A DNA stretch of 40,998 nt from an uncultured Alphaproteobacteria bacterium. Its GTDB lineage: Bacteria; Pseudomonadota; Alphaproteobacteria; Puniceispirillales; Marisalimonadaceae. Below the pieces are notes generated by a model, which was not told where the DNA came from, did not search any database, and saw nothing but the letters and a program-made list of their open reading frames with translations. Below are positions 5,394 through 24,269 of the stretch, piece after piece; positions within the stretch are counted from its first letter, which is position 1, and each line of letters opens with the position of its first letter. The translations under genes were made by a program, and so were the position numbers. The stretch is taken from contig CAKZQZ010000049.1 of NCBI GenBank assembly GCA_937142855.1, positions 1-40,998 of the forward strand. The letters are read 5' to 3'.

Positions 5394-5401
5394 GTGTGAA
5401 G

Positions 5402-6754: not shown

Positions 6755-7261
6755 ATTAATGAACCTAATCTCATTATTATTGAAATGATGTTCTTTTAAA
6801 TTGATAGAAGAGCTTTCTTGATCATTTATTCTGTCAACAACCCAAAAATCTTGTTTTTTCTTTACTAAAAGAGGGTGGTGCCATACATTTTTATTGTATG
6901 TAATGCCGGTATCACCATCTACATGGAAACATCTTAAAGTATTTAAATCTGGTAATTCATTTTTTTCTTCACAAACGACTATCAACCAATCATAATCTTG
7001 AATTGGAAGAAAACTTTGTGAAGCTATTGGATGTTTTTCCATTATTTTTATTTCTATTGGAAGATCTCTTGGAGAACCAGAAAAGACAGAAATACTGGAA
7101 TTTCCATTGTTACTTTCTAAATTTAGCTTAGAAATATTATGATACCTAGTGGTAGTGCCTTGATTGATAGAACGCAATTCCAAAGCATTTTTCTTTTGTA
7201 TAATATGCCCAAATCTAGAAAAAATATTAATATCCAATTGTTCGATTGAAATATTATTCAT
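6749..7261 (-). CDS. allA: Ureidoglycolate lyase
   Basis: AllA splits (S)-ureidoglycolate into glyoxylate and urea, the last step of the allantoate branch. The 170-aa protein matches the family in length and motifs: MEKHPIASQSFLPI in the middle, then GITYNKNVWHHPLL and FWVVDR near the C-terminus, a cupin-like fold with the WHHP segment at the active site. It is the last gene of a five-gene minus-strand operon, one base downstream of alc, so it is probably translationally coupled to it. The 3' end overlaps the stop of the 8-oxoguanine deaminase gene by six bases. Confidence 0.93.
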   Translation of the reverse strand: MNNISIEQLDINIFSRFGHIIQKKNALELRSINQGTTTRYHNISKLNLESNNGNSSISVFSGSPRDLPIEIKIMEKHPIASQSFLPIQDYDWLIVVCEEKNELPDLNTLRCFHVDGDTGITYNKNVWHHPLLVKKKQDFWVVDRINDQESSSINLKEHHFNNNEIRFINL

Positions 7262-7262
7262 T

Positions 7263-8258: not shown

Positions 8259-8275
8259 TTTTTTTCCTATTTATT

Positions 8276-9682: not shown

Positions 9683-9699
9683 AAAGTATTCTCCAATAA

Positions 9700-10923
9700 T
9701 TATTTATTTTTTAGGTGATGAACACTCAAATAAAGTTGATTTATTAAATTCCTTTCATTGTCCTCAAGAAAAGAAATATTTCCAGGTGGCATCGCATAAG
9801 ATAATACAGACTGTTTATGTATGCTTTGAATATTATTAATTATATCAGTAGATGTTTCTAAGTTTACTAATTTAGGGGCATTTTTCATGTTTTCCCACAA
9901 AGGCTCTCTTGCATGGCACATAGAACATTTAGATACAATTATCTCCTTAGCACTTACCAGGGTTTCTTTGGGGATTAGTTTGATCAAAGAAGCTGTGTTT
10001 TTGATTTTAGTCAGCTGTGGTTTACCTAAGTATGAAATATAAAAAATTACTGATGCTAGAATAATTATTGGAAAACAGATCCAATAAGGTGGCTTTGCTC
10101 CAGTATGTTTTATATTGAAAAAATGACGAATGAGAGCACCAATTATAAGAATGATTGAAATGATTATCCAAGAATATTTAGTGGCATAAATAAGAGGATA
10201 ATGGTTTGAAATCATGATAAAAATTACTGGCAGAGTTAAATAATTATTATGTAGAGAACGTTGTTTTGCTACAGCTCCATGAATTGGGTCTGGAGTTTCA
10301 TTTGCTATTAAACTAGCAACAACTTTTTTTTGACCAGGAATTATAATCATGAGAACATTAGCCACCATAATGGTACCTAAAACTGTCCCTATCTGCATGA
10401 AAGCGCCTCTATAACTAAATATTTCAGAATAAATCCATGACATGACAGTTATTAAAATAAATATAGAGCTTATAAGTATGTAGATATTTGTCTTTAATGA
10501 TATTCTGCACACAAGATCATAAATAACCCAACCAAAAACGATGCCTAGTATAGAAATTATTACAGCCTCATATTTTTCTAAATCATATTTGACAATGTCA
10601 ATCATATATAATTCAGCACCTGCATAATATATAAGGGCTAACAAAGCAAAGCCTGAGACCCATGTTGCATAAGCTTCCCATTTAAACCAGGTTAATTCTG
10701 AAGGTAGTTTTGATGGTGCAACCAGATACTTAACTAAATGATAAAATCCTCCACCATGAACTTGCCACGCTTCTCCATGAGATTTATCGGGAAGATTTTT
10801 ATTTTGTTTTAAACTTAAATCTAAAGCAATGAAATAAAAGCTTGACCCAATCCAAGCAATTCCAGCAATAACATGGAACCATCTTAAAATTAGCTCTGTC
10901 CATTCTTGAAATAAAAATATCAC
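9700..10923 (-). CDS. puuD: Membrane-bound cytochrome c urate oxidase
   Basis: PuuD oxidises urate to 5-hydroxyisourate and hands electrons to its own cytochrome c, hence to the respiratory chain, rather than making hydrogen peroxide. The 407-aa protein has the Urate_ox_N membrane domain with about eight hydrophobic helices (RWFHVIAGIAWIGSSFYFIALD at the start). A C-terminal cytochrome c domain carries the heme motif CSMCH near residue 332 and a likely axial Met in YAMPPGN. The start is GTG, preceded by GAGGAAG inside the end of uraH, and the two genes are three bases apart. It replaces soluble uricase in this pathway. Confidence 0.95.
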   Translation of the reverse strand: MIFLFQEWTELILRWFHVIAGIAWIGSSFYFIALDLSLKQNKNLPDKSHGEAWQVHGGGFYHLVKYLVAPSKLPSELTWFKWEAYATWVSGFALLALIYYAGAELYMIDIVKYDLEKYEAVIISILGIVFGWVIYDLVCRISLKTNIYILISSIFILITVMSWIYSEIFSYRGAFMQIGTVLGTIMVANVLMIIIPGQKKVVASLIANETPDPIHGAVAKQRSLHNNYLTLPVIFIMISNHYPLIYATKYSWIIISIILIIGALIRHFFNIKHTGAKPPYWICFPIIILASVIFYISYLGKPQLTKIKNTASLIKLIPKETLVSAKEIIVSKCSMCHAREPLWENMKNAPKLVNLETSTDIINNIQSIHKQSVLSYAMPPGNISFLEDNERNLINQLYLSVHHLKNK

Positions 10924-10926
10924 GAA

Positions 10927-11277
10927 TTAGCTTCCTCTATAGGTACTGTAACCAAAGGGAGATAGTAATAATGGCACATGGTAATGTTCAGATTTATTAT
11001 TTACAAAGAATCTTATCGGTATTTTATCAAGGAAGATATGTTTAAGATCACTATTCTGTTTTTTTAAATAATCACCAGCAAAAAACAATAATTCATAATG
11101 AATTTCCTCTAAATTTTCAGAAGATAATAATGGTCCATCAATCCTGCCATCTTGATTTGTTGAAACAGTTTTGACTAAAACTCTTCCTGTATTAAGTATT
11201 TTGTATAATTCAATTTTTAATTCTACTGCAGGTTTGCCCTTACTTGTATCTAAAACATGAGTTGATAGACCTGCCAT
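10927..11277 (-). CDS. uraH: 5-hydroxyisourate hydrolase
   Basis: A transthyretin-like protein of 116 aa that opens 5-hydroxyisourate to OHCU. The family marks are all present: the N-terminal LSTHVLDTSKGKPA with catalytic His7, the Arg of GRIDGPLL, HYHVPLLLSPFGYSTYRGS near the end, and the invariant C-terminal YRGS. No export signal is visible, so it is cytoplasmic. It is the first gene of the minus-strand operon uraH-puuD-hydantoinase-alc-allA and is divergent from uraD, which catalyses the next step. Confidence 0.95.
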   Translation of the reverse strand: MAGLSTHVLDTSKGKPAVELKIELYKILNTGRVLVKTVSTNQDGRIDGPLLSSENLEEIHYELLFFAGDYLKKQNSDLKHIFLDKIPIRFFVNNKSEHYHVPLLLSPFGYSTYRGS

Positions 11278-11345
11278 ACATTTCTCTATTTAAATTTATA
11301 TAATATATGTTTAAATGCTGATTTACAATAATGTCAGGTGAAATA
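11278..11345. promoter_or_regulatory. Divergent uraH/uraD promoter region
   Basis: This 68-base AT-rich gap separates two divergent purine-degradation transcription units. A perfect TATAAT lies at 11299-11304 on the plus strand and TATAAATTT is readable on the minus strand. I see no good -35 element and no clear operator palindrome. The promoter role is inferred from gene orientation. Confidence 0.4.
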
Positions 11346-11867
11346 ATGTACAATAAAACTTTTAAATTTCTTTCTCAAAAAATGGAAAGAGAGGAAATTA
11401 TAAATCTTTTAAAAAGTATCTATGAGCATTCTTCATGGGTGCCAGAAAGACTTTTGTCTGAGAATATAAGCGAGATTAAAACTAAAGAAGAATTACAATT
11501 GAAGATGAAAAAAATTGTTGATAGCTCTACTGAAATAGAGAAACTAAATTTGATAAATGCCCATCCCGAACTAGGAAAAAGACTTCAAAAAAAAGAAAAA
11601 CTAACAAAGTTTTCTCAAGAGGAACAAAGATCTGCAGGATTAGATCAATGCTCTGAAGAGGAGTTTGAAATTTTAACTAATCTTAATAACTCATATAGAT
11701 TAAAATTTGAATTTCCATTTATAATTGCTGTTAAAGGCTTAACTAAAAACCAGATTATAGATAATATGAAAATAAGAGTTAATAATAGTAAATCTGAAGA
11801 ATTTGAAACTGCAATTAACGAAATTCATAAAATAGCTCGACTAAGAATTATAGATTTGACTTATTAA
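11346..11867 (+). CDS. uraD: OHCU decarboxylase
   Basis: UraD decarboxylates 2-oxo-4-hydroxy-4-carboxy-5-ureidoimidazoline to (S)-allantoin. The 173-aa all-helical protein has the catalytic His in LINAHPELG (H73). EEQRSAGL, YRLKFEFPFIIAVKG and the C-terminal EIHKIARLRIIDL also match the family. A start at 11331 is possible, but the ATG at 11346 has AGGTG (11336-11340) five bases ahead and gives the usual family length. It completes the three-enzyme urate-to-allantoin set with puuD and uraH. Confidence 0.92.
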   Translation: MYNKTFKFLSQKMEREEIINLLKSIYEHSSWVPERLLSENISEIKTKEELQLKMKKIVDSSTEIEKLNLINAHPELGKRLQKKEKLTKFSQEEQRSAGLDQCSEEEFEILTNLNNSYRLKFEFPFIIAVKGLTKNQIIDNMKIRVNNSKSEEFETAINEIHKIARLRIIDLTY

Positions 11868-11910: not shown

Positions 11911-12864
11911 ATGTTAAAAAATTTTAAAGACATGAAAGGTGTTATTGCAATTGCAACTACACCTTTTGATAATGAAAATTTAATTGATTTTGATTCAGTT
12001 GATAGACTTTCTAATTATTATTTAGAAAGTGAAGTTTCTGGTGTTACGATTCTTGGGGTCATGGGTGAAGCTCATAAGCTTAACATTGAAGAACAAAAGC
12101 TATTAATCAAGAGGTATATAAATAAGTTATCAGGAAAAGTGCCTGTTATAGTTGGAGTATCGAATGCTGGGCTTGATAACTTAGAATTACTTTCAAAATT
12201 TTCAATGGATTCTGGTGCATCTGGAGTGATGGTATCTGGAAATAATGGTTTAAAAAATGATGATCAAATTAAATTTTATTTTAATCAAGTCATAGATCGT
12301 ACTAAAGATATTCCAATATGTTTGCAAGACTATCCACCTACAACTAATGTTTATTTTTCTGAGAGTGTAATAAATAGTATAATGGAAAGTCATCCATCTA
12401 TTGAGATGTTTAAGCACGAAGATTGCCCAGGACATAATAAATTATCAAGACTTTTGAGATATAGAGAAAATAATTTAAAAAGAATATATAGCGTCTTTGT
12501 TGGGAATGGAGGATTATATGTTCCGCAAGAACTTGAGAGAGGTGCTGACGGAATTATGACTGGTTTTGCTTTTACTGAAATGTTGGTGAGTTTATATAAT
12601 TTATTTTTTAATGATGAAAAAGAAAAAGCAGAAGACTTATTTGATATATATTTACCACTGATTAGGCACGAACAACAATTTGGAATTGGTTTAGGTTTAA
12701 GAAAATTTGTTTTGCAAAAAAGAGGTATAATTAAATCATTAAATGTAAGGTCCCCTGGCCCCATCCTTACCAAGGATGATGTTGTGGAGATCAATCATTT
12801 ATTAAACAGATTAAACTCTAAATTGATTGAAAAAGGTCTTCCAATTCCAAAAGGTATAAATTAA
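11911..12864 (+). CDS. DHDPS/NAL-superfamily aldolase or lyase of unknown substrate
   Basis: A 317-aa TIM-barrel protein of the DapA/N-acetylneuraminate-lyase superfamily. The Schiff-base lysine is K168 (EMFKHED), so carbonyl chemistry on a 2-keto acid is likely. Two sites differ from DapA: the GTTGE loop is GVMGEAHKL, and the YNVPxRT motif is LQDYPPTT (139-141 are Q, D, Y), so the catalytic Tyr is shifted or replaced. It is therefore probably not the lysine-biosynthesis enzyme. It starts a plus-strand run with a racemase-fold protein 4 bases downstream and a PuuE-like hydrolase after that. I cannot name its substrate. Confidence 0.85.
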   Translation: MLKNFKDMKGVIAIATTPFDNENLIDFDSVDRLSNYYLESEVSGVTILGVMGEAHKLNIEEQKLLIKRYINKLSGKVPVIVGVSNAGLDNLELLSKFSMDSGASGVMVSGNNGLKNDDQIKFYFNQVIDRTKDIPICLQDYPPTTNVYFSESVINSIMESHPSIEMFKHEDCPGHNKLSRLLRYRENNLKRIYSVFVGNGGLYVPQELERGADGIMTGFAFTEMLVSLYNLFFNDEKEKAEDLFDIYLPLIRHEQQFGIGLGLRKFVLQKRGIIKSLNVRSPGPILTKDDVVEINHLLNRLNSKLIEKGLPIPKGIN

Positions 12865-12868
12865 AAAA

Positions 12869-13615
12869 ATGAAAATATTGCTGTATAATCCTAATACTAC
12901 TGTATCTATTACCGAAAAACTTTATGAAACCGCTAAGTTAGTGGTGAGTGGTGAAACAATTCTTGTTCCCAAAACAGCAGATAAGGGTTTCCCTTATATT
13001 TCAACAAAAGTTGAAGCACAAATTACAGGCACATTGGTTCTAGAAAAAATAGCAGAAATACATTCAGAATATGATGCAATAATTATAGCTGCGTTTGGTG
13101 ATCCAGGTTTGATCGCTGCAAGAACATTGTTTAATTTGCCAATAATTGGGCTAGGTGAAGCAGCGATGTTAAGTGCTTGCTTATTTGGCAAGAAATTCTC
13201 TATTATCTCATTTACGAATGCAATGGCCTCCTGGTACGAAGAAAGTGTAGAATTACTTGGATTGCAATCTAGATACGCAGGATTTAGAGCCATTGATGGT
13301 GTAAACTTATCGATAGATAAAATACAATCACTACAGAAAAAATCTTTGATTGAGTCTGCTAATGATGCCATTGACATTGATGGAGGAGAAGTCGTTATTT
13401 TTGCTGGAGCACCATTATCCGGGTTTAAAAAAATTGTTCAAAATAAAATAAGGGTGCCTATAATTGATTGTGCCGAGGCAGCTGTCAAACAAGCAGAATT
13501 AGCTATCGCTATGAATAAAAATATTATAAATAAAAATAAATTACCGCCCAAAATATCTATTGGAATTGATAAAAATTTATCAGAATTAATCTCTCATAAA
13601 ACTAATAATGGTTAA
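12869..13615 (+). CDS. Asp/Glu/hydantoin racemase-family protein lacking both catalytic cysteines
   Basis: A 248-aa member of the Asp/Glu racemase fold (hydantoin/allantoin racemase group). N-terminal MKILLYNPNTT is the family's 'NPN(T/S)' start, and AAFGDPGL and PIIGLGEAA follow. In active hydantoin and allantoin racemases two cysteines 105 residues apart act as bases, in (A)CFGDPGL and LGCAGM. Here those positions are A75 and G180 (IIAAFGDPGL; IFAGAPLSGF), again 105 apart. Classical two-base racemisation is therefore unlikely, and lyase, isomerase or another role should be considered. It is four bases from both neighbours, in one operon with the DHDPS-like gene and the PuuE-like gene. Confidence 0.85.
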   Translation: MKILLYNPNTTVSITEKLYETAKLVVSGETILVPKTADKGFPYISTKVEAQITGTLVLEKIAEIHSEYDAIIIAAFGDPGLIAARTLFNLPIIGLGEAAMLSACLFGKKFSIISFTNAMASWYEESVELLGLQSRYAGFRAIDGVNLSIDKIQSLQKKSLIESANDAIDIDGGEVVIFAGAPLSGFKKIVQNKIRVPIIDCAEAAVKQAELAIAMNKNIINKNKLPPKISIGIDKNLSELISHKTNNG

Positions 13616-13618
13616 TAA

Positions 13619-14518
13619 ATGAATAGAGATTTTATTGGTTATGGAAAAGAAACGCCAAAAGTTTTTTGGCCACAAGATAATAAAATCGCAGTATCGTTTG
13701 TTGTAAATATTGAGGAGGGTGCAGAGCTTTCTATTTCATCCGGCGATGACGAAAATGAGCATGTATACGAAAATAACAAAACTAAAATATTAAATGTTCC
13801 AGATCTTTGCATGGAGTCTCATTTTGAATATGGTTTAAGGTCAGGCATTTGGCGTATTTTTGATATTTTTGATAGATATAATGTAAAAGCTACTTTTAGT
13901 TGTTGCTCTTTTGCATTAGAAAAATCTCCTTGGTTGATAGATGAAATTTTAAAGAGAAATCATGAAATATCTGCTCATGGTGTGAAGTGGGTTTCCCATT
14001 CATATCTAAGTAGAGAAGAAGAAAAAAAGATAATTAATGATTGTTACTCTTCAATTTTAAACCTTTCTGGTCACCCACCAATGGGCTGGCATACAAAATC
14101 TAGTACATCTCCATTTACAAGGGATCTTTTAATAGAACATGGAGGCTTTATCTATGACTCTAATGCTTATAATGATGATATTCCTTACGTATTAAAAAAA
14201 CAAAATCAGAAATTTGTAATTATTCCTTATTCTTTTGATACAAATGACATGAGATTTGATGGTAATAACGGTTTTGTGCATCACGAAGATTTTAGTAATT
14301 ATTGCAAAGAATCATTTAATCAGCTTATTTCTGAAACAGAAGATGGTTCAGTCAAAATGATGTCTATTGGATTACATCCGAGAATTATTGGAAGACCAGG
14401 TAGAATTAAAGGTCTCGAAGATTTTATTAAACATATAAATAATATTGAAAGTGTGTGGATCCCTAAGAGGATGGAGATAGCAAAATATTGCATAAAAAAA
14501 GATTCATTCTATCTTTGA
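13619..14518 (+). CDS. PuuE-like polysaccharide deacetylase-fold amidohydrolase (possible allantoinase)
   Basis: A 299-aa protein of the NodB/polysaccharide-deacetylase fold, colinear by eye with PuuE allantoinase: DFIGYG...P.VFWP at the start, VVNIEEGAEL, YGLRSGIWRI, HEISAHGVKWVSHSYL, MGWHTKS, GFIYDSNAYNDDIPY, FDTNDMRF, MSIGLHPRIIGRPGR. PuuE hydrolyses the allantoin ring without the cofactors of the AllB type. Substrate is uncertain: it lies in the operon with the DHDPS-like and racemase-like genes, not with alc/allA, and the family also includes enzymes for other ring amides. No signal peptide, so it is cytoplasmic. Confidence 0.82.
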   Translation: MNRDFIGYGKETPKVFWPQDNKIAVSFVVNIEEGAELSISSGDDENEHVYENNKTKILNVPDLCMESHFEYGLRSGIWRIFDIFDRYNVKATFSCCSFALEKSPWLIDEILKRNHEISAHGVKWVSHSYLSREEEKKIINDCYSSILNLSGHPPMGWHTKSSTSPFTRDLLIEHGGFIYDSNAYNDDIPYVLKKQNQKFVIIPYSFDTNDMRFDGNNGFVHHEDFSNYCKESFNQLISETEDGSVKMMSIGLHPRIIGRPGRIKGLEDFIKHINNIESVWIPKRMEIAKYCIKKDSFYL

Positions 14519-14525
14519 TTAAATT

Positions 14526-14608
14526 TACGACAATTGGCGTAGGTTCTTAATTTATTTTTTTGCTTACGTTTAATTCAATTTGACTCTTCATCACTCTAAG
14601 TGCTTAAT
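14526..14608 (+). promoter_or_regulatory. Weak terminator-like hairpin followed by probable promoter of TRAP-hyuAB unit
   Basis: TACG (14526-14529) pairs with CGTA (14538-14541) around CAATTG and is followed by a T-rich stretch ending near 14560, a weak terminator candidate. Downstream, TTGACT (14580-14585, 5 of 6) and CTTAAT (14603-14608, 4 of 6) are separated by 17 bases, a plausible sigma-70 promoter giving a leader of about 25 bases before the dctP start. Both calls are by eye. Confidence 0.35.
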
Positions 14609-14638
14609 ATTTTCACAAATACTATGAAAGGAATTAAA

Positions 14639-15613
14639 ATGCTTACAAAAACTTTTAAGAAAATTTTTATTTTTGTAGCTGTATCTATGTTTAGTTTTAA
14701 TTTGCACGCTGCAGATTGGACTATGGCATCCGGCTATCCCAAAAGTAATTTTCATACTCAAAACATTATTAAATTTATAGATGAGGTTAAATCTACAACA
14801 TCAGTAAATATTAACTTAAACCCAAATGATACTCTAATTAAAATAGATGCTATTAAAACTTCACTGCAAAGAGGACAGATACCAATAGGAGAAATTAGGC
14901 TAGGAATCTATGGTAATGAAGACCCTATGTATATTCTTGCCGGTCTCCCTTTTATAGCCCCAGACTATTCTAGTGCATGGCTTTTAAAAGATGTTCAAAT
15001 GGGCTACCTTCAAGAAAAATTTTCAAAGAAAGGTTTAATGATCCTTTATACTTCTCCATGGCCAGGACAAGGGTTTTATACAAAGTCCCCAGTTAACAGT
15101 GTGGCTGATTTTAAGGGTAAGAAGTTAAGAATATATTCTACAGCAACACAACAGATGGGATCCATGCTAGGTTTTAATGCTACAATTCTTCCTTTTGCTG
15201 AAATTCCACAAGCTTTTTCTACAGGTTTAATTGAAGCTTTATTTACCAGTCCTCAAACTGGTATAGACATTCAAGCATGGGATAATACAAAACACTTTAC
15301 CTATGCAGGTGCTATTTTTAGTAAAAACGCAGTAGTTGTTACAAAAAAAGCCTTCGAAGCATTGTCTAAAGATGATCAAAGTAACATTCTTGCAGCGGCA
15401 AAAAGAGCAGAGCTAAGAGGATGGGAAATGAGTGCTGAAACAACTAAAAAGCAGATTAAAACATTAGAAAATAATGGTATGTCTGCTAAAAATGCACCAG
15501 ACGAAGTTATTAGTACCATGAAAACTATTGGTCTTGAAATGATGAAGAGCTGGAGAGAAAAAGCAAGTCCAGAAGCTAATGCAGTTCTAGATCGTTACCT
15601 GTCAATGCGTTAA
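14639..15613 (+). CDS. TRAP transporter substrate-binding protein (DctP family), hydantoinase-linked
   Basis: The periplasmic receptor of a three-component TRAP importer, 324 aa from the ATG at 14639. That start has GAAAGGA (14626-14632) at good spacing and begins a clean signal peptide: lysine-rich head, hydrophobic core, cleavage after LHA near residue 24. The frame is open back to 14600. DctP features include the central FKGKKLRIYS with the conserved substrate-carboxylate arginine, and ALFTSPQTGIDIQAWD. TRAP receptors normally bind a carboxylate. With hyuA/hyuB directly downstream, a carboxylated ureide or oxoproline-like compound is a sensible guess. The MatP-like receptor at 28636 is a different specificity. 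Confidence 0.92.
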   Translation: MLTKTFKKIFIFVAVSMFSFNLHAADWTMASGYPKSNFHTQNIIKFIDEVKSTTSVNINLNPNDTLIKIDAIKTSLQRGQIPIGEIRLGIYGNEDPMYILAGLPFIAPDYSSAWLLKDVQMGYLQEKFSKKGLMILYTSPWPGQGFYTKSPVNSVADFKGKKLRIYSTATQQMGSMLGFNATILPFAEIPQAFSTGLIEALFTSPQTGIDIQAWDNTKHFTYAGAIFSKNAVVVTKKAFEALSKDDQSNILAAAKRAELRGWEMSAETTKKQIKTLENNGMSAKNAPDEVISTMKTIGLEMMKSWREKASPEANAVLDRYLSMR

Positions 15614-15632
15614 AAAAAATTGAGAGATAGCC

Positions 15633-16148
15633 ATGAGAAATAAACTTAATAAATTATATTTATATAGTGGCTATCTTTCTGCTTTATTTATGGTTCTGAT
15701 TGCTCTTACTATTGTAGCTCAGATACTAGGTAGATTTGTCAATATTACAGTAGATTCAACAGAAACAGCTGGTTTTAGTTTGGCTGCTCTTACATTTTTT
15801 GGATTGTCATATACATTTCATCATGGTGAACATATAAGGGTAACCTTATTTACTCGACTTCTTGGTAAAAAACTTAGAAGGTATCAGGAACTTTTTTCTT
15901 TATCTTTTTGTATAGTTATTACTTCTTATCTTACTTACTGGAGTTGGGATTTTGTTTACTTTTCCTTTATATTCGATGATATAAGTCCTGGTCTTTTGGC
16001 TATTCCGTTTTGGATACCAAGACTAAGTATGTCTATAGGTGTTACTATCTTCCTAGTCGCTCTTATAGATGACTTTGTAATTGTTTTAAAAAACGAACTT
16101 CCTTCGTACGTCAAAAATGCTAACCCAATCTTAAAAGATAATAGTTAG
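15633..16148 (+). CDS. TRAP transporter small permease (DctQ family)
   Basis: A 171-aa inner-membrane protein with four hydrophobic helices (around residues 10-32, 45-65, 85-108 and 125-148), the size and layout of DctQ. A conserved-looking TFHHGEHIRV segment lies between helices two and three, with basic loops. It is 19 bases after dctP and nine before dctM. DctQ pairs with DctM to form the membrane part of the sodium-driven importer. Confidence 0.9.
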   Translation: MRNKLNKLYLYSGYLSALFMVLIALTIVAQILGRFVNITVDSTETAGFSLAALTFFGLSYTFHHGEHIRVTLFTRLLGKKLRRYQELFSLSFCIVITSYLTYWSWDFVYFSFIFDDISPGLLAIPFWIPRLSMSIGVTIFLVALIDDFVIVLKNELPSYVKNANPILKDNS

Positions 16149-16157
16149 AGTAAAAAA

Positions 16158-17456
16158 ATGGCAACTGGCTTATCATTAATCTTATTTGTTTTTTTATTAA
16201 TTCTTTTATCCTTAGGGATATGGGTTGCTCCTGCGCTTATAACTTTAGGGTATATTTTATTAGAGTTTTTTACGCCAGCGCCTGTAGGTTCATTATTAGC
16301 GAGTACTTTATGGGACGCCAGTTGGAATTGGGCTTTAACAGCCCTGCCTCTGTTTATATGGATGGGAGAAATCCTTTTTAGGACTAGACTTTCATCAGAA
16401 ATGTTTAAAGGACTTGCGCCAATGCTCTCAAATTTGCCTGGCGGTTTGCTACATGTGAATGTTGTCGGATGTGGTATTATGGCAGCAGTTGCAGGTTCAA
16501 GCGCTGTAACATGCGCAACTATTGGAAGAATGAGTATACCAGAGTTAAAGAAAAGAAATTATGACGAGACACTAAGTATTGGTTCATTAGCGGGTTCAGG
16601 CACACTTGGTCTTCTAATACCTCCATCAATAATGTTGATTGTATATGGTGTCCTAGCTCAAGTATCAATTTCAAGATTATTTATAGCAGGCGTCTTACCA
16701 GGGATCATGATTATTATTATTTTCATGACTTATATAATCATAAGATCAAAATTAAATCCCGCATTAGCCCCTAAACAAGATGTTAAGTATACTTTTTGGG
16801 AAAAAATCAAAGCCGCAAGAAATTTATTACCAGTTCTTGCTTTGATATTCTTTGTATTAGGTTCCATTTATGGTGGCTACGCAACACCAACTGAAGCTGC
16901 GACCATTGGAGTGATAGGCGCATTATTATTAGCATGGTCTTCAAAAACTTTAAATAAACAAAGTTTTGTTGATAGTTTAATGGGGGCTGTAAAAACATCA
17001 TGTATGATAAATTTTATTATTGTTGGAGCAGCGTTTTTATCAGTTGCAATGGGATATACAGGAATTCCTAAACAGCTAGGTCAAATAGTTAGTGATTTTG
17101 AATTATCACAATTATCACTTTTGGCTATTTTAACTTTGTTATATATTTTTCTTGGTTGTTTTCTTGAGGGAACCTCTATGATGGTATTAACAGCTTCTGT
17201 AGTTTTACCTATGGTTCAAACAGCTGGAATAGACCTGATATGGTTTGGTATATTTACAGTTGTAGTTGTTGAGATGGCACAGATAACCCCTCCAGTTGGT
17301 TTTAATTTGTTTGTGCTACAAGGAATGACTGGAAGGGATATATTAAAAGTTACAAAAGCTGCGCTTCCATTCTTTTTTCTTATGTTATTAAGCATAGTGA
17401 TACTTATTATGTTTCCTGAAATAGTTACTGCACCTGTAAACTTTATGATTCAATAA
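16158..17456 (+). CDS. TRAP transporter large permease (DctM family)
   Basis: A 432-aa permease with about 12 membrane segments. DctM signatures are visible: GCGIMAAVAGSSAVTCATIG near residue 105, GSLAGSGTLGLLIPPSIM near 143, YGGYATPTEAATIG near 237, and TPPVGFNLFVLQG near 375. It forms the sodium-coupled translocation path with the preceding DctQ. The gene ends 23 bases before hyuA, so transporter and hydrolase are likely one transcript. Confidence 0.94.
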   Translation: MATGLSLILFVFLLILLSLGIWVAPALITLGYILLEFFTPAPVGSLLASTLWDASWNWALTALPLFIWMGEILFRTRLSSEMFKGLAPMLSNLPGGLLHVNVVGCGIMAAVAGSSAVTCATIGRMSIPELKKRNYDETLSIGSLAGSGTLGLLIPPSIMLIVYGVLAQVSISRLFIAGVLPGIMIIIIFMTYIIIRSKLNPALAPKQDVKYTFWEKIKAARNLLPVLALIFFVLGSIYGGYATPTEAATIGVIGALLLAWSSKTLNKQSFVDSLMGAVKTSCMINFIIVGAAFLSVAMGYTGIPKQLGQIVSDFELSQLSLLAILTLLYIFLGCFLEGTSMMVLTASVVLPMVQTAGIDLIWFGIFTVVVVEMAQITPPVGFNLFVLQGMTGRDILKVTKAALPFFFLMLLSIVILIMFPEIVTAPVNFMIQ

Positions 17457-17479
17457 TTTTAAAATGAGGATGATTACCA

Positions 17480-19549
17480 ATGAGATTGGCTATTGATATA
17501 GGCGGTACTTTTACTGATATTGTTTTAGAAAATGATAATAATCTTATTACTAAGAAAGTTCTTACATCTATTGCTCAACCAGAGATTGCTGTTATTGAAG
17601 GTATCTTAGAGCTTTTAGAAGAGAACAAAATTATGTCTTCTGAAATTAAAATGATTATCCATGGAACAACCTTAGCAACCAATGCTGTCATTGAAAGAAA
17701 AGGAGCTAAAACCTGCTTTGTCACTACAGAAGGTTTTAGAGATGTTTTGGATATCGGTTATGAAAGTAGGTTTGATCAATATGATATTTTAATTGAAAAA
17801 ACAATGTCATTAGTGCCCAGAAAACATAGATATGTGATTAAAGAAAGAACTGATGTAAATGGATCTATAATAGAGCCGATAAATACTAATGCATTTAAAG
17901 GTCTTGTTAAAAAAATCAAGGATGAAAATTTCGAAAGTGTAGGAATTGGTTTCTTACACTCTTATGCAAACCCTGAAAATGAAAATATTTTAAAAGATTA
18001 TTTAATCAATAATTTACCTGGTGTAGAAATAAGTGTTTCTTCGGATGTATGCCCTGAAATAAGAGAATATGAACGTTTTACTACGACTGTAGTAAATGCA
18101 TATATCAAACCATTGATGGCCAATTATTTAAAAAAATTAGATAACGAATTAAAGGGAAAAGGTTTTAACTGTTCTCTTTTACTAATGACCTCAGGTGGAA
18201 CTTTAACTAATATAGAAAGTGCTTGTAATAATCCTGTTAGGTTAGTGGAATCAGGGCCAGCTGGCGGGGCCATACTTGCAACTTCTATTGCTGATGATCT
18301 TGATCTTAATAAAGTTATTTCTTTTGATATGGGTGGGACAACTGCCAAAATAACTATCATAGAAAATAAAAAAGCCATTAAGGCAAGAGAGTTTGAAGTT
18401 GATAGGAAAGCTAGGTTTAAGAAGGGGAGTGGGCTTCCTTTAAGAATTCCCGTTATTGAAATGGTTGAAATTGGTGCAGGTGGTGGATCTATTGCTAGAG
18501 TTAATAAGCTAGAGCAAATAATTACTGGCCCAGATAGCGCTGGCTCTTATCCTGGTCCAGCGTGTTATGATAATGGAGGTGATAAACCAACTATTACAGA
18601 TGCGGATTTAGTTATTGGGAAAATTAATCCTAAAAATTTTGCAGGTGGAAAAATTATACTTTCTAAAGAATTAGCCACTGAAGCAATAAATAAAAATATA
18701 TGTAATATTGTAAATCTAGATACTGAAACTGCTGCGCTAGCAATTTCTGAAATTGTTGATGAAACCATGTCAAATGCAGCAAGAGTTCACACAGTTGAAC
18801 AAGGACACGAAACCTCAAATAGAACTTTGATTGCATTTGGTGGGGCTGCCCCTTTACATATAGCTAGAGTGGCTGAAAAACTAAGAGTAAAATCCATAAT
18901 TGTACCAACTAATGCTAGCGTTGGCTCTGCCGTTGGATTTCTTAAAGCGCCAGTTGGTTATGAAGTCGTGAAAAGTCTTAGAATGCTTTTGAATTCGTTT
19001 AAGGCTCAGAAAATAAATGATTTACTGAAAGATATGAGGGATGAGGCCCAAGCCATCATTCAAAGTAATTTAGATGAAGTTTCCTTCGTAGAAGAAAGGT
19101 TTGCATTTATGAGATATGCCGGACAAGGGCATGAAATCAAAGTGCCAATTGATAATTCTATTTTAGAAAATCAACATGCAGTTAAAATAAAAGCTACATT
19201 TGAAGAACAATATGAAAAATTATATTCAAGGATATTGCCTAATGCAGACATAGAAATTTTGACATGGTCTCTGTCTTTATCTATTGCCAGTGAAAATAAT
19301 AATGAATTTAAAAAACTAGATGGTTTTAAAGAAATTAAGAAAAATAAATTAGTTGATTTTGTAGATTATGAAAGAAACAAACAAATTGAGATCCCTTATT
19401 TTGAACGCATTGATTTAAATCCTGGTGATTTAATAAAAGGTCAATGCATAATATCGGAAGATCAAACTACAGTAATAGTATCTAAAAATTTTAATACAAA
19501 AGTTTTGTCAAACAATTTTTTACAAATGGAATTTATAAATGATGATTAA
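17480..19549 (+). CDS. hyuA: HyuA-type hydantoinase/oxoprolinase subunit A
   Basis: The ATP-binding (ASKHA-fold) subunit of an ATP-dependent hydantoinase or 5-oxoprolinase-like enzyme, 689 aa. It has MRLAIDIGGTFTDIVL at the N-terminus, HGTTLATNAVIERKGAKTCFVTTEGFRD near 55-80, SGPAGGAILATSIAD near 258, and SFDMGGTTAKI for the second nucleotide-binding half. The family opens five-membered lactam or hydantoin rings, or carboxylates ketones in the acetone-carboxylase branch. GAGGA stands upstream of the ATG. The end overlaps hyuB by 11 bases, so the subunits are coupled. The exact substrate is not deducible. Confidence 0.93.
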   Translation: MRLAIDIGGTFTDIVLENDNNLITKKVLTSIAQPEIAVIEGILELLEENKIMSSEIKMIIHGTTLATNAVIERKGAKTCFVTTEGFRDVLDIGYESRFDQYDILIEKTMSLVPRKHRYVIKERTDVNGSIIEPINTNAFKGLVKKIKDENFESVGIGFLHSYANPENENILKDYLINNLPGVEISVSSDVCPEIREYERFTTTVVNAYIKPLMANYLKKLDNELKGKGFNCSLLLMTSGGTLTNIESACNNPVRLVESGPAGGAILATSIADDLDLNKVISFDMGGTTAKITIIENKKAIKAREFEVDRKARFKKGSGLPLRIPVIEMVEIGAGGGSIARVNKLEQIITGPDSAGSYPGPACYDNGGDKPTITDADLVIGKINPKNFAGGKIILSKELATEAINKNICNIVNLDTETAALAISEIVDETMSNAARVHTVEQGHETSNRTLIAFGGAAPLHIARVAEKLRVKSIIVPTNASVGSAVGFLKAPVGYEVVKSLRMLLNSFKAQKINDLLKDMRDEAQAIIQSNLDEVSFVEERFAFMRYAGQGHEIKVPIDNSILENQHAVKIKATFEEQYEKLYSRILPNADIEILTWSLSLSIASENNNEFKKLDGFKEIKKNKLVDFVDYERNKQIEIPYFERIDLNPGDLIKGQCIISEDQTTVIVSKNFNTKVLSNNFLQMEFINDD

Positions 19550-21170
19550 AGATAATTTAACTGAAGAGAAAAAAAATATTCAAAATCAAGTTATGTGGAA
19601 CCGTTTATTATCAGTTGTTGAAGAACAAGGGCAGACGCTAGTTAGGACAGCTTTTAGTCCAATAGTTCGTGAATGTGGTGATATCTCTGCAGGTGTTTTT
19701 GATTTAGAGGGAAGAATGATGGCACAGGCTGTTACAGGAACACCCGGTCACGTAAACTCCATGGCGGAGTCAGTTAAACACTTTATTGATCATTTTCCTC
19801 TTAATTCAATGAATGAAGGAGATATTTTTATTACTAATGATCCTTGGATGGGTACAGGACATCTTAATGATTTTGTAATAACTACGCCATGTTTCAAAGA
19901 CAATAAAATTGTTGGACTTTTTTCTTGCACATCACATTTGACAGATATTGGAGGTTTGGGCGTTGGTCCTGATGCGACTGATATTCATATGGAAGGTTTG
20001 TACATCCCGATGTTAAAACTAGCTGACAAGGGTGTGATGGATCAAACACTGTTGAAATTGATTAGCCAAAATACCAGACAACCTGTTGAAACTGAGGGTG
20101 ATGTATATTCTTTAGCGGCGTGTAACGATATAGGTTGTAAGAGATTAGTTGAAATGATGGAAGAATTTCAAATTTCGAATCTTAAAGACTTATCTGACTT
20201 TATATATAATAAGTCTTTACAAGCTGTAGAAAATGAAATTAAGAAAATTCCAAATGGTGTATACCACAATTTTATGATGATTGATGGTTTTGAAAAAGAT
20301 ATTCGTCTTGAAGCAAAGTTAGTTGTAAAGGATAAATCTATTTCTGTTGATTTCACTGGCACATCAGATAAATCTAAATTTGGTATTAACGTACCTTTAT
20401 CTTATACAAAAGCTTATACTTGCTTTGGTTTAAGCTGCCTTGTTAGTGCAGAAATACCTAATAACGCAGGCTCTTTATATCCATTCCAGATAGATGCTCC
20501 TAAAGGATCAATATTAAACGCTCCTTATCCAGCTGCGGTCTGTGCAAGACACATTATTGGTCAAATGCTTCCTGATGTTGTCTTTGGGTGTCTAGAAAAA
20601 GCCCTGCCTGACAAAGTGCCTGCGGAAGGAGCTTCATGTTTATGGAATATAACATTTCGTGGTAAAACCGATAGAGGAGCAAATAATAATTCTTTATTTG
20701 CAGTCACAGCGGTTGTTAATGGAGGAACTGGTGCCAGACCCTCGAAAGATGGATTGTCAGCCACTGCATATCCTTCAGGAGTGAGGGGAACTCCAGTAGA
20801 AATTAATGAGGCAGTAGCACCATTATTGTTCCTTAGAAAAGAGTATAGTCCTGGAAGTGGAGGTAAAGGAAAATATAATGGAGGCTTAGGGCAAGCAATT
20901 GAAATTAAGTCAGCAATAGATGAGGATATGGACCTTTTAGCGTCTTTCGATAGAATAAAATATCCAGCCAGAGGAAGATTGCAAGGCGAAGATGGAAAAG
21001 CTGGAAGCGTTTCAATAAAAAATCAAGGGCAATTAAAAGGAAAAGGAACACAAGTAATAAAAGCAGGCGAGATATTAGAAATTTATACTCCGGGTGGAGC
21101 TGGAATTGGGAAATATTCTGAAAGAGATCAGGAACTAATTAATAGAGATGATGAAAACGAATTACTGTAA
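19539..21170 (+). CDS. hyuB: HyuB-type hydantoinase/oxoprolinase subunit B
   Basis: The partner subunit of HyuA, 543 aa. Family blocks seen: AFSPIVRECGDISAGVFD near 37-54, TGTPGHVNSM, NDPWMGTGHLNDFVI near 104, CTSHLTDIGG near 130, and the glycine-rich C-terminal YSPGSGGKGKYNGGLGQAIE and TPGGAGIGK. Two ATGs in tandem (19539 and 19542) lie inside the end of hyuA and either can be the start. The stop codon directly abuts the stop of the minus-strand racemase-like gene, with no room for a separate terminator. Confidence 0.93.
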   Translation: MMIKDNLTEEKKNIQNQVMWNRLLSVVEEQGQTLVRTAFSPIVRECGDISAGVFDLEGRMMAQAVTGTPGHVNSMAESVKHFIDHFPLNSMNEGDIFITNDPWMGTGHLNDFVITTPCFKDNKIVGLFSCTSHLTDIGGLGVGPDATDIHMEGLYIPMLKLADKGVMDQTLLKLISQNTRQPVETEGDVYSLAACNDIGCKRLVEMMEEFQISNLKDLSDFIYNKSLQAVENEIKKIPNGVYHNFMMIDGFEKDIRLEAKLVVKDKSISVDFTGTSDKSKFGINVPLSYTKAYTCFGLSCLVSAEIPNNAGSLYPFQIDAPKGSILNAPYPAAVCARHIIGQMLPDVVFGCLEKALPDKVPAEGASCLWNITFRGKTDRGANNNSLFAVTAVVNGGTGARPSKDGLSATAYPSGVRGTPVEINEAVAPLLFLRKEYSPGSGGKGKYNGGLGQAIEIKSAIDEDMDLLASFDRIKYPARGRLQGEDGKAGSVSIKNQGQLKGKGTQVIKAGEILEIYTPGGAGIGKYSERDQELINRDDENELL

Positions 21171-21875
21171 TTAAATTGGTATCCCAAAATTTCTACCAGG
21201 TTTATTCTCAAATTTTTTAATTTTTATCCCTAGACTTATTAATTGTTGTGTTAGTGCGGTTGCAGCGCCTATTCCTTCAATAAAAGGAAGATTATATTTT
21301 TCTGAAAAAGTTTTTGTAAGATCTGATATTCCAGCACTCGTTAAGATTATTGCTTCTGGTTTATCCTCTGAAATAGTTCTCTGAATTTCAATGTCTAATT
21401 TTCTAATATTGGATTTTGACATTGTTTCCATATCAAGAATTGGTACTTCTATAGATTTTAATGAGACGCATTTGTGATCCATATCGTATTTAATAAGGTT
21501 ATTTTTAATGGCTTCGTGAGTTTGGGATATATTAGTTATTATTGAAAATCTATTGGCTATAATATTTGCAATGTAAAAACAAGCCTCACCAATACCAACT
21601 ATTGGTTTTGATGTTATTTTCCTAATTGTATCAACACCGATATCCTCAAATGATGCCACTATAAATGCATCTGAGCTTTTATTATTTTCAACTTTTTTAA
21701 TTAGATCTGAAATATTGGCTGCTTCGTGGTGTTGATTAAAATCAATCTCACTTAAATCAAGATCATCAACATAAATACTTGATCCTTGTGCAATAATTTT
21801 TTCAGCTGTTAATTTGAGTTTTTCATTTGATTTTTTACTTGCGTAGGGGTTTAGAATACAAATTTCAATTTTCAA
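21171..21875 (-). CDS. Second Asp/Glu racemase-family protein, Ser in place of both catalytic Cys
   Basis: A 234-aa protein of the same fold as the one at 12869-13615 (NPYASKKSNEKL start, PIVGIGEACFYIA, LPFIEGIGAATAL). The two positions that carry catalytic cysteines in hydantoin/allantoin racemases are S75 (FIVASFEDIG) and S180 (AIILTSAGISDL), exactly 105 residues apart as in the active enzymes. The protein is divergent, with the DPGL motif changed to DIGV. It converges stop-to-stop on hyuB and lies 11 bases downstream of the BisC-like molybdoenzyme gene on the same strand, so it is probably co-transcribed with that gene. Function unknown. Confidence 0.75.
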   Translation of the reverse strand: MKIEICILNPYASKKSNEKLKLTAEKIIAQGSSIYVDDLDLSEIDFNQHHEAANISDLIKKVENNKSSDAFIVASFEDIGVDTIRKITSKPIVGIGEACFYIANIIANRFSIITNISQTHEAIKNNLIKYDMDHKCVSLKSIEVPILDMETMSKSNIRKLDIEIQRTISEDKPEAIILTSAGISDLTKTFSEKYNLPFIEGIGAATALTQQLISLGIKIKKFENKPGRNFGIPI

Positions 21876-21886: not shown

Positions 21887-24232
21887 CTATTTTTTAACAA
21901 TTTCAGGTTCGTTAAAAATTTTTAGTGGTGGTAAATCTTTTGTATATTTCTTAATTTCAACCAATGTGGAGTGAGCTGAAGGGCCTTGTGCAAGTGATGA
22001 GGTTCCAATATCCTCAGTCAATACATTTGGATTGCCATGTATACAATAGTCATCACCAGAAGGATCGTACCAGGCCCCAACTGGAAGGAAGACTACCCCT
22101 TTCATAACTTCTTTTGAAATAATTACCCCTGCAAGACATTTACCTCTTTTATTGAATACTTCTACTATATCCCCATTATTTAAATCCCTGGACTTGGCGT
22201 CTTCTGGGTTGATCTTGATAGCCTCTCTTCCTAATATTTTATCTTTTTGACTTTCTGAACCGTTATCTAATTGGCTATGCAATCTATTATGAGGTTGCCC
22301 AGAAAGAAGTTGTAACGGAAATTTTTCTGTAATATTTGAACCCAGCCATTCATCCTGTTCTATCCAAGCTGGATGACCAAAACAATCCTTATAATTAAAA
22401 CTGGCTAAAGTTTTTGAGAATACTTCTATTTTACCTGAGGGTGTTGGCAGAGAGTTTTTTTCTGGATCAATTCTAAATTGCTCTAATAATATTGTCTGTT
22501 TTTTGGGTGATAATACATTTTGAAATCCGCTTTTCCAAAACTTATCAAAGTCAGGTAATGAAAAATTTGATTCCACAGCACCTTTTTTAGCTTCATCCCA
22601 TAAAAATCTGAGCCATTGATCTTCGTTACGGTCTTCTGTGAATTTTGAAAAAATATTTAATTTCTCAGCAATGGCAGAAAAAATTTCATAGTCTGATTTA
22701 GCCTCACCAATTGGTTCTATACATTTATGCATTGGAGATATTGTTTGATCCCAGTGTCTTATTCCAATGTCATTTCGTTCTAGAGATGTTGTTGCTGGTA
22801 AAACAATGTCAGAATGTCTTGCTAGACTATTCCACCAAATTTCATTCACAATGATGCTATCAGGCTGCTTAAATGCTTTTACAAGTTTCTTTAGATTCAT
22901 TTGGTGATGAAATGGATTACCTCCTGCCCAATAAACTAGCTTTATATCAGGGTATTTGAGATTTTGACCGTTATAGGAAAAATTTTCTTCAGGTTGCAAA
23001 AGCATATCAGAAATTCTTGCGACAGGAATGAATTCGTTCACAGGGTTTTTAAATTGATTTAATGCTGGCCACTTATGGTATTGAACAGGGTTGCCGATAC
23101 CATTTTCGGCGCTGTACCCAAGACCAAAACCACCTCCTGGCAGGCCTATCTGTCCAAGCATACATGCTAGCACCGTAATCATCCAATGTGGTTGTTCACC
23201 ATATTGTTGTCTTTGTAGAGCCCATGCTCCAGTTATCATTGTTCTGTTAGCAGACATTTTTTTTGCTAGGCTATAAATAGTATCACTTGGAATCCCTGTA
23301 ATCTTTGAGGCCCAATAGGGAGTTTTTGCTTTGCCATCTGATGTACCTTTTAAATATTTTGAGAATTCTTCGTATCCTGTACAATATTTATTTAAAAACT
23401 CTTTATCTGCCATACTTTCAGTTTCAAGTATGAAGGCTATCCCAAGCATAAGTGCAGTATCAGTTCCTGGTCTAATTTTTATCCATTCTGCATTACTTAT
23501 GATGTCAGCTTCCATCTCCATAGGACTGATGTTGATAAACTCTATCCCCTTTTTGGTACAACTTTTTATAAAGTCTTTTGTAGTATGCTTCCCAACACCT
23601 CCAGATGTAACTTGAGAATTTTTAAGTGGAAGTCCACCAAACATAACTATTACTTTAGAATTGTCTTTAATATTGTTCCAATCAGTGTGGTTGTCTAAGA
23701 ATTGCCTATAAGTTATTCCAATAACATGAGGCATAATTGTCTCACTAGCTGCATAAGAATATGTATTAACTGATTTGGTATAACCACCATAACAATTAAA
23801 AAATCTATGAAGCTGGCTTTGTGCATGATGGAATCTTCCGGCTGAACCCCAACCATAAGAACCAGCAAAAAATGCTTTGTTTTTATATTTCTTTTTGACC
23901 CTGTTTAATTCAAAAGCAACTATTTCTATCGCCTCATCCCAAGTTATTTGTACAAATGCATCTGAACCTCTTTTGCTTCGGGCTCGTTTTCCAGTTAATG
24001 ACATTTTAGGGTTTGATAGTTCTTTACGTATCTCTCTAAGGTATCCTTTTCTTACATGAGGAAACTTTATTCTTAACTTATCGTCGATACTATCAACCAG
24101 TCCATTGGCTATACTAGAAGGGTTTCTATCAAGTTCATAAGGTTTTAATCCAATAAGTTTATTATCTTCGGTTTCTGCATAATAACTTCCCCAATGGAAG
24201 GAGGTTGGTCTTTTAGTTTTTTTTGCCATCAT
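21887..24232 (-). CDS. DMSO reductase-family molybdoenzyme, biotin sulfoxide reductase-like
   Basis: A 781-aa bis-MGD molybdenum oxidoreductase. The segment GSYGWGSAGRFHHAQSQLHRF (124-144), a serine molybdenum ligand S159 in NTYSYAASETIMPHVIG, and QLLSGQPHNRLHSQLD place it with TorA/DorA/BisC S- and N-oxide reductases. There is no twin-arginine signal and no N-terminal cysteine cluster, which fits cytoplasmic BisC-type enzymes that reduce biotin or methionine sulfoxide. Two tandem ATGs (24232 and 24229) are available; the second is better spaced from an AGGGT box. It lies 37 bases after the flavin/Fe-S fusion gene and 11 before the second racemase-like gene, so all three may share a transcript. 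The substrate here is not established. Confidence 0.88.
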   Translation of the reverse strand: MMAKKTKRPTSFHWGSYYAETEDNKLIGLKPYELDRNPSSIANGLVDSIDDKLRIKFPHVRKGYLREIRKELSNPKMSLTGKRARSKRGSDAFVQITWDEAIEIVAFELNRVKKKYKNKAFFAGSYGWGSAGRFHHAQSQLHRFFNCYGGYTKSVNTYSYAASETIMPHVIGITYRQFLDNHTDWNNIKDNSKVIVMFGGLPLKNSQVTSGGVGKHTTKDFIKSCTKKGIEFINISPMEMEADIISNAEWIKIRPGTDTALMLGIAFILETESMADKEFLNKYCTGYEEFSKYLKGTSDGKAKTPYWASKITGIPSDTIYSLAKKMSANRTMITGAWALQRQQYGEQPHWMITVLACMLGQIGLPGGGFGLGYSAENGIGNPVQYHKWPALNQFKNPVNEFIPVARISDMLLQPEENFSYNGQNLKYPDIKLVYWAGGNPFHHQMNLKKLVKAFKQPDSIIVNEIWWNSLARHSDIVLPATTSLERNDIGIRHWDQTISPMHKCIEPIGEAKSDYEIFSAIAEKLNIFSKFTEDRNEDQWLRFLWDEAKKGAVESNFSLPDFDKFWKSGFQNVLSPKKQTILLEQFRIDPEKNSLPTPSGKIEVFSKTLASFNYKDCFGHPAWIEQDEWLGSNITEKFPLQLLSGQPHNRLHSQLDNGSESQKDKILGREAIKINPEDAKSRDLNNGDIVEVFNKRGKCLAGVIISKEVMKGVVFLPVGAWYDPSGDDYCIHGNPNVLTEDIGTSSLAQGPSAHSTLVEIKKYTKDLPPLKIFNEPEIVKK

Positions 24233-24269
24233 TACCCTATTTGTAAACGGTCTAAATCTGATTTTAATT

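Follow-up and report, generated by a model that had tools for sequence, protein, structure and literature searches.

A TRAP transporter and hydantoinase gene cassette inside the purine degradation locus of SAR116 bacteria

Layout of the cassette

The stretch of DNA described here (the window) is 40,998 nucleotides long and corresponds to positions 1 to 40,998 of contig CAKZQZ010000049.1 in assembly GCA_937142855.1, from an uncultured alphaproteobacterium of the order Puniceispirillales, family Marisalimonadaceae, genus SAR116 (genome of 2.32 Mb in 122 contigs). The original prediction, made from the sequence alone, described positions 11911–21875 as a catabolic module of nine genes, eight of them closely spaced on the plus strand and the ninth converging on them stop to stop. 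All nine open reading frames (ORFs) were found at these coordinates, and their families were confirmed when all nine proteins were scanned with Pfam and NCBIfam profiles (DctQ and DctM were assigned by Pfam only). The nine-gene boundary was not borne out. The real unit is a discrete cassette of eight genes (11911–21170), set inside a complete purine and urate degradation locus.

All eight genes lie on the plus strand. The first (11911–12864; Pfam DHDPS, 1.3e-21) encodes a protein of the class I aldolase/dehydratase fold, hereafter DHDPS-like, which carries K168, E170 and the pair Q139-D140. It is followed by Rac1 (12869–13615; Pfam Asp_Glu_race, PF01177, 1.6e-36), which has the Asp/Glu/hydantoin racemase fold but A75 and G180 in place of the two catalytic cysteines, and by a predicted ring amidohydrolase of the polysaccharide-deacetylase fold, hereafter PuuE-like (13619–14518; Pfam Polysacc_deac_1, 1.4e-10; TIGR03212, 290 bits). 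A TRAP importer comes next, consisting of the receptor (DctP, 14639–15613; 6.5e-30), for which the ORF list begins at a GTG at 14600, the small permease (DctQ, 15633–16148; 1e-25) and the large permease (DctM, 16158–17456; 1.2e-84); both permeases have orthologues in relatives. The last two genes encode the subunits of an ATP-dependent hydantoinase/oxoprolinase, HyuA (17480–19549; Hydantoinase_A, 1.3e-82; Hydant_A_N, 1.8e-46) and HyuB (19539–21170; Hydantoinase_B, 1.6e-147). The successive gaps between the eight genes are 4, 3, 120, 19, 9 and 23 bases, followed by an 11-base overlap. The ninth gene, Rac2 (21171–21875, minus strand; Asp_Glu_race, 6.6e-25), encodes another racemase-fold protein, with serine at both catalytic cysteine positions, and meets HyuB stop to stop at 21170/21171.

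Boundaries and conservation

Fifteen of the 22 named loci hold all eight genes complete, colinear, on one strand and as single ORFs, which argues that the gene block is not due to chance. In three others one gene is split into two ORFs (L075, L079 and L082). Among the remaining four, L080 and L086 are truncated, L073 is short with an odd join, and L070 has no readable PuuE-like ORF. With a Rac1 match at E ≤ 1e-30 as the marker, 28 out of 136 genomes from the order (many of them incomplete) were scored as having the cassette. All 28 belong to one family (28 of its 58 genomes) and are distributed as 24/40 in the window's genus and 2/3, 0/2 and 2/13 in three others.

The gene order is the same in three genera. 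G001, G002 and G045, from two genera other than the window's, keep this order in a position shifted relative to UraD and PuuD; in these genomes the cassette sits elsewhere in the purine locus and has no Rac2 at its end. Conversely, G007, G004, G018 and G008 have no cassette and keep the purine genes, with the UraD and Rac2 neighbors 31–102 bases apart. Since each occurs without the other, Rac2 is not part of the cassette. As a member of the module it was ruled out: it stays beside BisC where the cassette is missing, and G001, G002 and G045 have the cassette alone. The neighbors of Rac2 are BisC and YdiJ, on the minus strand. Rac2 is the most divergent protein, at 61–75% identity to that of the window within the genus. 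Of the sequences read in the genus, all but that of G018 have serine in place of both cysteines; G018 and G004 hold cysteine at the first position.

On the left, the stop codon of UraD (OHCU decarboxylase; 11331–11867, plus strand; TIGR03164, 173.4 bits, cut-off 96.25) lies 43 bases upstream of the DHDPS-like gene, and nine further purine genes precede UraD in the window. Position 11911 is therefore not a natural boundary, and isolation of the module from the purine genes is not supported. UraD itself is a core purine gene outside the cassette, because it persists where the cassette is absent; the two are possibly co-transcribed.

Gain, loss and selection

Synonymous divergence (dS) of the genes from XdhB to UraD was 0.00–0.09 between L081 (G012, with the cassette) and L046 (G007, without it). 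Between L081 and L065, dS was 1.26–1.64 for XdhB to PuuD (UraH was saturated; UraD, 1.01), but 0.45–0.78 for Rac1 to HyuB. We infer from these values that most of the cassette has recombined between lineages. SAR116 bacteria gain and lose the cassette as a unit inside the purine locus. Compared with L081, the locus of G013 (L161) has purine genes at dS 0.02–0.28, HyuA at 1.39 and HyuB at 0.95. Because HyuAB divergence is high and purine divergence low, the HyuAB that G013 carries by itself is not left over from the cassette version in L081.

All eight genes are under purifying selection. The median ratios of nonsynonymous to synonymous divergence (dN/dS), taken over pairs among the named loci with dS 0.1–1.5, ranged from 0.018 to 0.109, with values of 0.018 for DctM, 0.087 for the DHDPS-like protein and 0.103 for Rac1.

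The TRAP receptor

The closest solved receptors by sequence were 2pfy (6.8e-71), 2pfz (2.7e-58) and 6wgm (1.9e-49). We take 2pfy and 2pfz, whose database entries read only "Putative exported protein", to be the two Bordetella pertussis DctP proteins crystallized with pyroglutamate. Judged by these matches, the cassette receptor is closest to the pyroglutamate-type DctP receptors. According to the accessible parts of two articles, two Bordetella DctP receptors bind pyroglutamate (PMC5812351; PMC12344293). Over ten receptor members, 37 residues were invariant (counting columns covered by at least eight of the ten), including the conserved TRAP arginine R164, and 18 of the 37 differ in both outgroup receptors. 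AlphaFold models were too poor to use (mean pLDDT 34.9 for the receptor and 50.9 for Rac1). The TRAP receptor family binds many acids, and the ligand might be an unrelated one, such as a sugar acid or taurine, in which case the enzymes would have been misread. However, after the three entries above the next solved receptor falls to 2.8e-18, and the sialic acid receptor SiaP reaches only 5.6e-9, which makes an unrelated acid extremely improbable.

A class sample of 385 genomes (window included) contained six other genomes with a receptor at E ≤ 1e-100. The three closest, which are also the nearest outside the family (70–75% identity; G215, G512 and G242), have TRAP genes, a PuuE-like gene (47–48%) and a cysteine-less racemase-fold gene together in one locus, and two of the three loci also contain a hydantoinase. 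The loci of the other three genomes (55–64%) lack this combination. In a phylum sample of 398 genomes, only G242 reached the receptor threshold besides the window.

The racemase-fold and PuuE-like proteins

The nearest PDB entries to Rac1 were 3qvk (putative hydantoin racemase) and 5lfd (allantoin racemase). In the allantoin racemase of Klebsiella pneumoniae (KpAllR) the catalytic residues are Cys79 and Cys184 (PMC12661438). At these positions Rac1 has A75 and G180 and Rac2 has two serines. The two proteins had been predicted to be cysteine-less, which is correct for the catalytic positions and not for the whole chains, since Rac1 has two other cysteines and Rac2 three. Among the 28 Rac1 sequences of the family (window included), 27 have alanine at the first site and 27 the FAGAP motif, with its glycine, at the second; both misses are partial sequences. 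Outside the window, the class yielded 14 homologues: nine with an AAFGDP motif and no cysteine at either site, G364 without both cysteines and with other motifs, three with a single cysteine, located at a site or adjacent to it, and one with both. The racemase-fold gene beside PuuE-like in G242 fell outside the thresholds of this homologue set and was separately read as cysteine-less. A decaying Rac1 gene was ruled out by the median dN/dS of 0.10. With these residues, Rac1 cannot use the two-cysteine racemization mechanism, and it probably catalyzes another reaction: tautomerization, decarboxylation, hydrolysis or assistance to ring opening. A conserved, cysteine-less branch of a well-studied racemase family, next to a PuuE-like hydrolase in several families, poses a directly testable question of enzymology.

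The PuuE-like protein, at 290 bits, is below the cut-off of 424.6 of the NCBI PuuE equivalog model (TIGR03212). Six PuuE-like relatives outside the family scored 263–330 bits, and the annotated PuuE of Sagittula 489.6. In the PDB, it matched 1z7a (5e-70) and 3cl6 (2e-68). In a tree of 20 sequences (FastTree), PuuE-like and PuuE proteins were separated by a branch with a support of 0.998. The PuuE side contained 3cl6, the annotated PuuE proteins L142, L202 and L203, L204, a relative without annotation, and also L096; L202 was attached weakly (0.594).

These results bear on the possibility that the cassette is an add-on to the urate pathway for scavenging allantoin or allantoate, in which the TRAP importer would take up the ureide, PuuE-like would be the allantoinase and Rac1 the allantoin racemase. 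PuuE (3cl6) and allantoin racemase (5lfd) are close PDB matches. However, the PuuE-like protein falls short of the PuuE cut-off and groups apart from PuuE, and Rac1 lacks both catalytic cysteines. The cassette adjoins urate genes in all 17 named loci that extend upstream beyond UraD, and in G001, G002 and G045 it is placed among them, yet the urate route is complete without it (hydantoinase-family enzyme, allantoicase and AllA) in G004, G007, G008 and G018, and PuuE above the cut-off was found in none of these four genomes (G008 and G018 are about 80% complete). A Sagittula plasmid has a receptor 53% identical to that of the cassette near a PuuE over the cut-off; still, allantoin has no carboxylate for the TRAP arginine, and HyuAB and the DHDPS-like protein would be left without a role. 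The gene key of a 2025 ocean purine study, covering SAR11, SAR86 and SAR116, has an allantoinase PuuE, an allantoin racemase and a "purine TRAP transporter", and the accessible part of the article says that allantoin racemase varies within SAR116 (PMC11698098). On balance, we consider the allantoin explanation unlikely. PuuE-like as the allantoinase of the pathway is not favored, given its score, its separate branch and a urate route that is complete without the cassette. If the labels in the accessible part of PMC11698098 mean this cassette, our results argue against Rac1 being a racemase of known mechanism and against PuuE-like being PuuE, and a purine would be an unlikely TRAP ligand.

HyuAB and the DHDPS-like protein

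Hydantoinase_A, Hydant_A_N and Hydantoinase_B were all over their gathering scores in HyuAB. HyuA matched the N-methylhydantoinase 7hk5 (4.9e-95) and 6yra (6.2e-83), and HyuB matched 7hk5 (2.2e-57), while the caprolactamase models of NCBIfam gave 461 and 182 bits, below their 1000-bit cut-offs. The same genome also encodes a protein of 1197 residues, L165, which was absent from the original prediction, has the A and B parts fused and is 31% identical to HyuA; the fused layout is presumably the architecture of classical 5-oxoprolinase. HyuAB as the sole 5-oxoprolinase candidate was ruled out by this homologue.

The cassette could instead be an operon for scavenging 5-oxoproline (pyroglutamate), imported by TRAP and hydrolyzed to glutamate by HyuAB. 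The receptor subfamily and the hydantoinase/oxoprolinase family of HyuAB agree with this, but PuuE-like, Rac1 and the DHDPS-like protein would be idle, and the nearest TRAP relatives lie beside PuuE-like genes, not HyuAB. PxpA was found in none of the 58 family genomes, which also speaks for such an operon; however, 40 of the 58, the window's included, have a Hydantoinase_B match in an open frame of at least 1000 residues, and L165 holds both parts. We regard a dedicated 5-oxoproline operon as unlikely too.

The DHDPS-like protein scored 77.3 bits with the dapA model, below the cut-off of 206.15. The closest PDB entry was 3dz1 (annotated dihydrodipicolinate synthase; 8.5e-72, 245 bits), for which we know of no tested function. 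In alignments, K168 is the Schiff-base lysine of the DHDPS family, and QD stands where 2yxg has the YN of the YN-x-P motif. The tyrosine of this motif is catalytic in DHDPS, and K-x-E and QD have roles in the L-2-keto-3-deoxyarabonate dehydratase.

DHDPS-like proteins at E ≤ 1e-60 occurred in 39 of 372 genomes of a class sample (window included). A hydantoinase lay within 10 kb in 14 of the 38 other genomes, corresponding to 14 of 36 hydantoinase copies (E ≤ 1e-100, in 28 of the 38 genomes); about 0.14 would be expected by chance, taking 20 kb in 5 Mb. Thirty-nine DHDPS-like loci were compared: one from each of 37 of these genomes, an additional one from G337 and one from a plasmid. (G480, in which the hydantoinase is 65 kb from the DHDPS-like gene by coordinates, was not included.) A hydantoinase was matched in 16, once at 25% identity, and a carbamoylase-type hydrolase in ten, one of these being the source of the hydrolase query.

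Partial gene sets outside SAR116

The original prediction had proposed a search for the same gene set in other genomes. In the genomes sampled, the set recurs as a co-inherited unit of eight in the SAR116 family and as sub-sets in other families, but not in full beyond the family. The lack of co-occurrence elsewhere that would have counted against the prediction was not observed for the sub-sets. Besides the three loci with TRAP, PuuE-like and racemase-fold genes, G188 has DHDPS-like (43%), HyuA/HyuB (46/47%) and TRAP genes together, and G316 has TRAP genes (receptor 42%, large permease 61%), a DHDPS-like gene, a hydantoinase, a carbamoylase-type hydrolase and a racemase. In G146, a cysteine-less Rac1 relative (42%) lies beside distant HyuA/HyuB homologues. 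On a Salipiger plasmid, PuuE-like lies with an amidase, a racemase fold without the cysteines, a hydantoinase, another racemase-fold gene and TRAP genes whose receptor is of a different type; because this receptor has only 25% identity to that of the cassette, the locus was not counted with the receptor relatives. The DHDPS-like loci found on plasmids of Salipiger and Roseomonas showed no context in common with the cassette, with the exception of PxpA/PxpB genes in Salipiger.

Every one of these outside contexts indicates ring amides, either hydantoins or lactams by type, and the SAR116 cassette looks like a combination of them. The halves might also be two pathways side by side, one (TRAP, Rac1 and PuuE-like) for one ring compound and the other (HyuAB and DHDPS-like) for another. 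They do occur apart outside SAR116 (G215, G512 and G242 versus G188), and G013 has HyuAB only. However, the eight genes are kept in one order in three genera and at two positions, and G188 has TRAP genes next to DHDPS-like and HyuAB, so that two separate pathways seem very unlikely.

The surrounding purine locus

The remaining purine genes lie within 176–11277 and were assigned by Pfam and NCBIfam: XdhA, XdhB, a xanthine permease and an 8-oxoguanine deaminase on the plus strand, and AllA, allantoicase, an enzyme of the hydantoinase/dihydropyrimidinase family (probable allantoinase), PuuD and UraH on the minus strand. If the hydantoinase-family enzyme is the allantoinase, the locus is a complete route from xanthine or 8-oxoguanine through urate to ureidoglycolate lyase. 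The 8-oxoguanine deaminase (5399–6754; 642.6 bits, cut-off 532) within the urate locus provides a direct route from oxidized guanine to urate.

To the right (21887–28532), BisC and YdiJ on the minus strand and a BhcA-like aminotransferase on the plus strand (430 bits, under the cut-off of 650) lie beside the purine locus in G000, G002, G004 and G045, one genome from each of four genera. Rac2 joins this group only in the window's genus and G004. This neighborhood may be tied to glyoxylate use. A second TRAP importer (28636–31508; names were read from the ORFs, and only BhcA was family-scanned) separates BhcA from malonyl-CoA decarboxylase. It looks like a local insertion, because the two flanking genes adjoin directly, without the importer, in five relatives (G044, G040, G004, G018 and G002).

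The window starts at base 1 of its contig. Beyond its reach, two related loci have upstream a third racemase-fold protein, with both cysteines, together with a polyamine-type ABC importer (L032, 12311–13042; L037, 14034–18491), joined in L037 by uracil phosphoribosyltransferase. In genus g4, the purine and cassette locus contains urease genes (UreG and urease alpha; L042, 3916–6561; L049, 5543–7249).

Proposed function

At the level of compound class, we propose that the cassette serves to take up a small carboxylated ring amide, similar in type to oxoproline or hydantoin, and to open its ring, with a 2-oxo acid at the end of the route, and we put the probability of this reading at about 50%. 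In this scheme, the compound brought in by the TRAP importer would be a small amide with a five-membered ring and a carboxylate, resembling 5-oxoproline or a hydantoin carboxylate, as the receptor subfamily suggests. From their families and context, PuuE-like would hydrolyze one ring amide, acting on the same ring as Rac1, and HyuAB would open a lactam or ureide bond in an ATP-consuming reaction. A transaminase or oxidase encoded elsewhere would then convert the amino acid or ureido acid so formed to a 2-oxo acid, which the DHDPS-like protein, by its family, may dehydrate or cleave through a lysine Schiff base. The original prediction, that a carboxylated cyclic ureide or imide is imported and degraded to a keto acid, is thus plausible in outline because the receptor subfamily, the enzyme families and their contexts fit, each step being conjectural. 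It is upheld by co-inheritance of the cassette, by the closeness of the receptor to the pyroglutamate type, and by relatives of the receptor, PuuE-like and the DHDPS-like protein that in other families recur near hydantoinases, carbamoylase-type hydrolases and racemase-fold proteins; its nine-gene extent and its isolation from the purine genes are not supported.

Several observations weigh against the proposed function. To our knowledge, no ligand or enzyme activity has been reported for any of the eight proteins, and no carbamoylase, transaminase or oxidase is encoded inside the cassette. Among the genomes sampled, only members of the SAR116 family had the complete eight-gene set. G013 (L161, 6748–10558) has HyuA and HyuB only, directly after UraD, with the other six genes absent; as this HyuAB differs in ancestry from that of L081, HyuAB can occur without the importer. 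The low dS that seven of the genes show in the comparison of L081 with L065 does not extend to the DHDPS-like gene (1.06). No hydantoinase appears in 23 of the 39 DHDPS-like loci (some of which are short stretches). In contrast to Rac1, each of the 17 racemase-fold genes close to a DHDPS-like relative still has its two cysteines. Identity of the receptor to 2pfy and 2pfz is only 36–37%, so its ligand may differ, and receptors at 55–64% identity (G230, G413 and G228) lie away from PuuE-like genes.

According to the accessible part of a 2025 article, which reports SAR116 purine operons, SAR116 ranks with the most abundant heterotrophs that live alongside Prochlorococcus; the same study proposes that microbes of the ocean cross-feed on purines (PMC11698098). 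A search of the available literature found no publication in which SAR116 and hydantoin occur together. We tentatively suggest that the SAR116 cassette could be a new route by which a cyclic nitrogen compound dissolved in ocean water is used, exchanged as a unit between lineages, with the PuuE-like branch as part of an undescribed pair of ring-opening enzymes, although we hold this wider view to be less probable than not. If the ligand is a ring compound that is not a purine, ocean counts of "purine TRAP" and "allantoin racemase" genes may mix two traits, and marker genes would become available for a source of dissolved organic nitrogen.

Comparison with known systems

The cassette receptor shares with 2pfy and 2pfz the 37 invariant residues, including R164, and the motifs NE-x-P, WP-x-x-G and TG, but differs from them in its identity of 36–37% and in that its closest relatives are linked to PuuE-like genes. 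Rac1 is of the same family as the allantoin and hydantoin racemases (KpAllR, 3qvj; 5lfd), with E about 1e-23, but these keep the two catalytic cysteines that Rac1 and its wider subfamily lack. PuuE-like has the fold of the PuuE allantoinase (TIGR03212; 3cl6), with 50 residues invariant over five PuuE and 14 PuuE-like proteins; it differs in being under the cut-off, apart in the tree, and in having GWHT in place of the GWYT loop of PuuE.

The DHDPS-like protein has the Schiff-base lysine of DHDPS/dapA, but matches neither the cut-off nor the catalytic tyrosine. With the L-2-keto-3-deoxyarabonate dehydratase (7c0c/3fkk) it shares K-x-E at the Schiff-base lysine as well as QD; membership in that family is not claimed, because the overall similarity is only 64 bits. 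The HyuA plus HyuB domain structure of the cassette is common to the ATP-dependent N-methylhydantoinase, 5-oxoprolinase and caprolactamase, but the cassette HyuAB is far under the caprolactamase cut-offs and distinct from the fused 1197-residue homologue of the same genome. Unlike hydantoin utilization operons (hydantoinase, carbamoylase and racemase), the cassette has PuuE-like and HyuAB as its predicted ring-openers, a racemase fold without the cysteines, and no carbamoylase; relatives of its DHDPS-like and TRAP proteins are nevertheless found in such operons.

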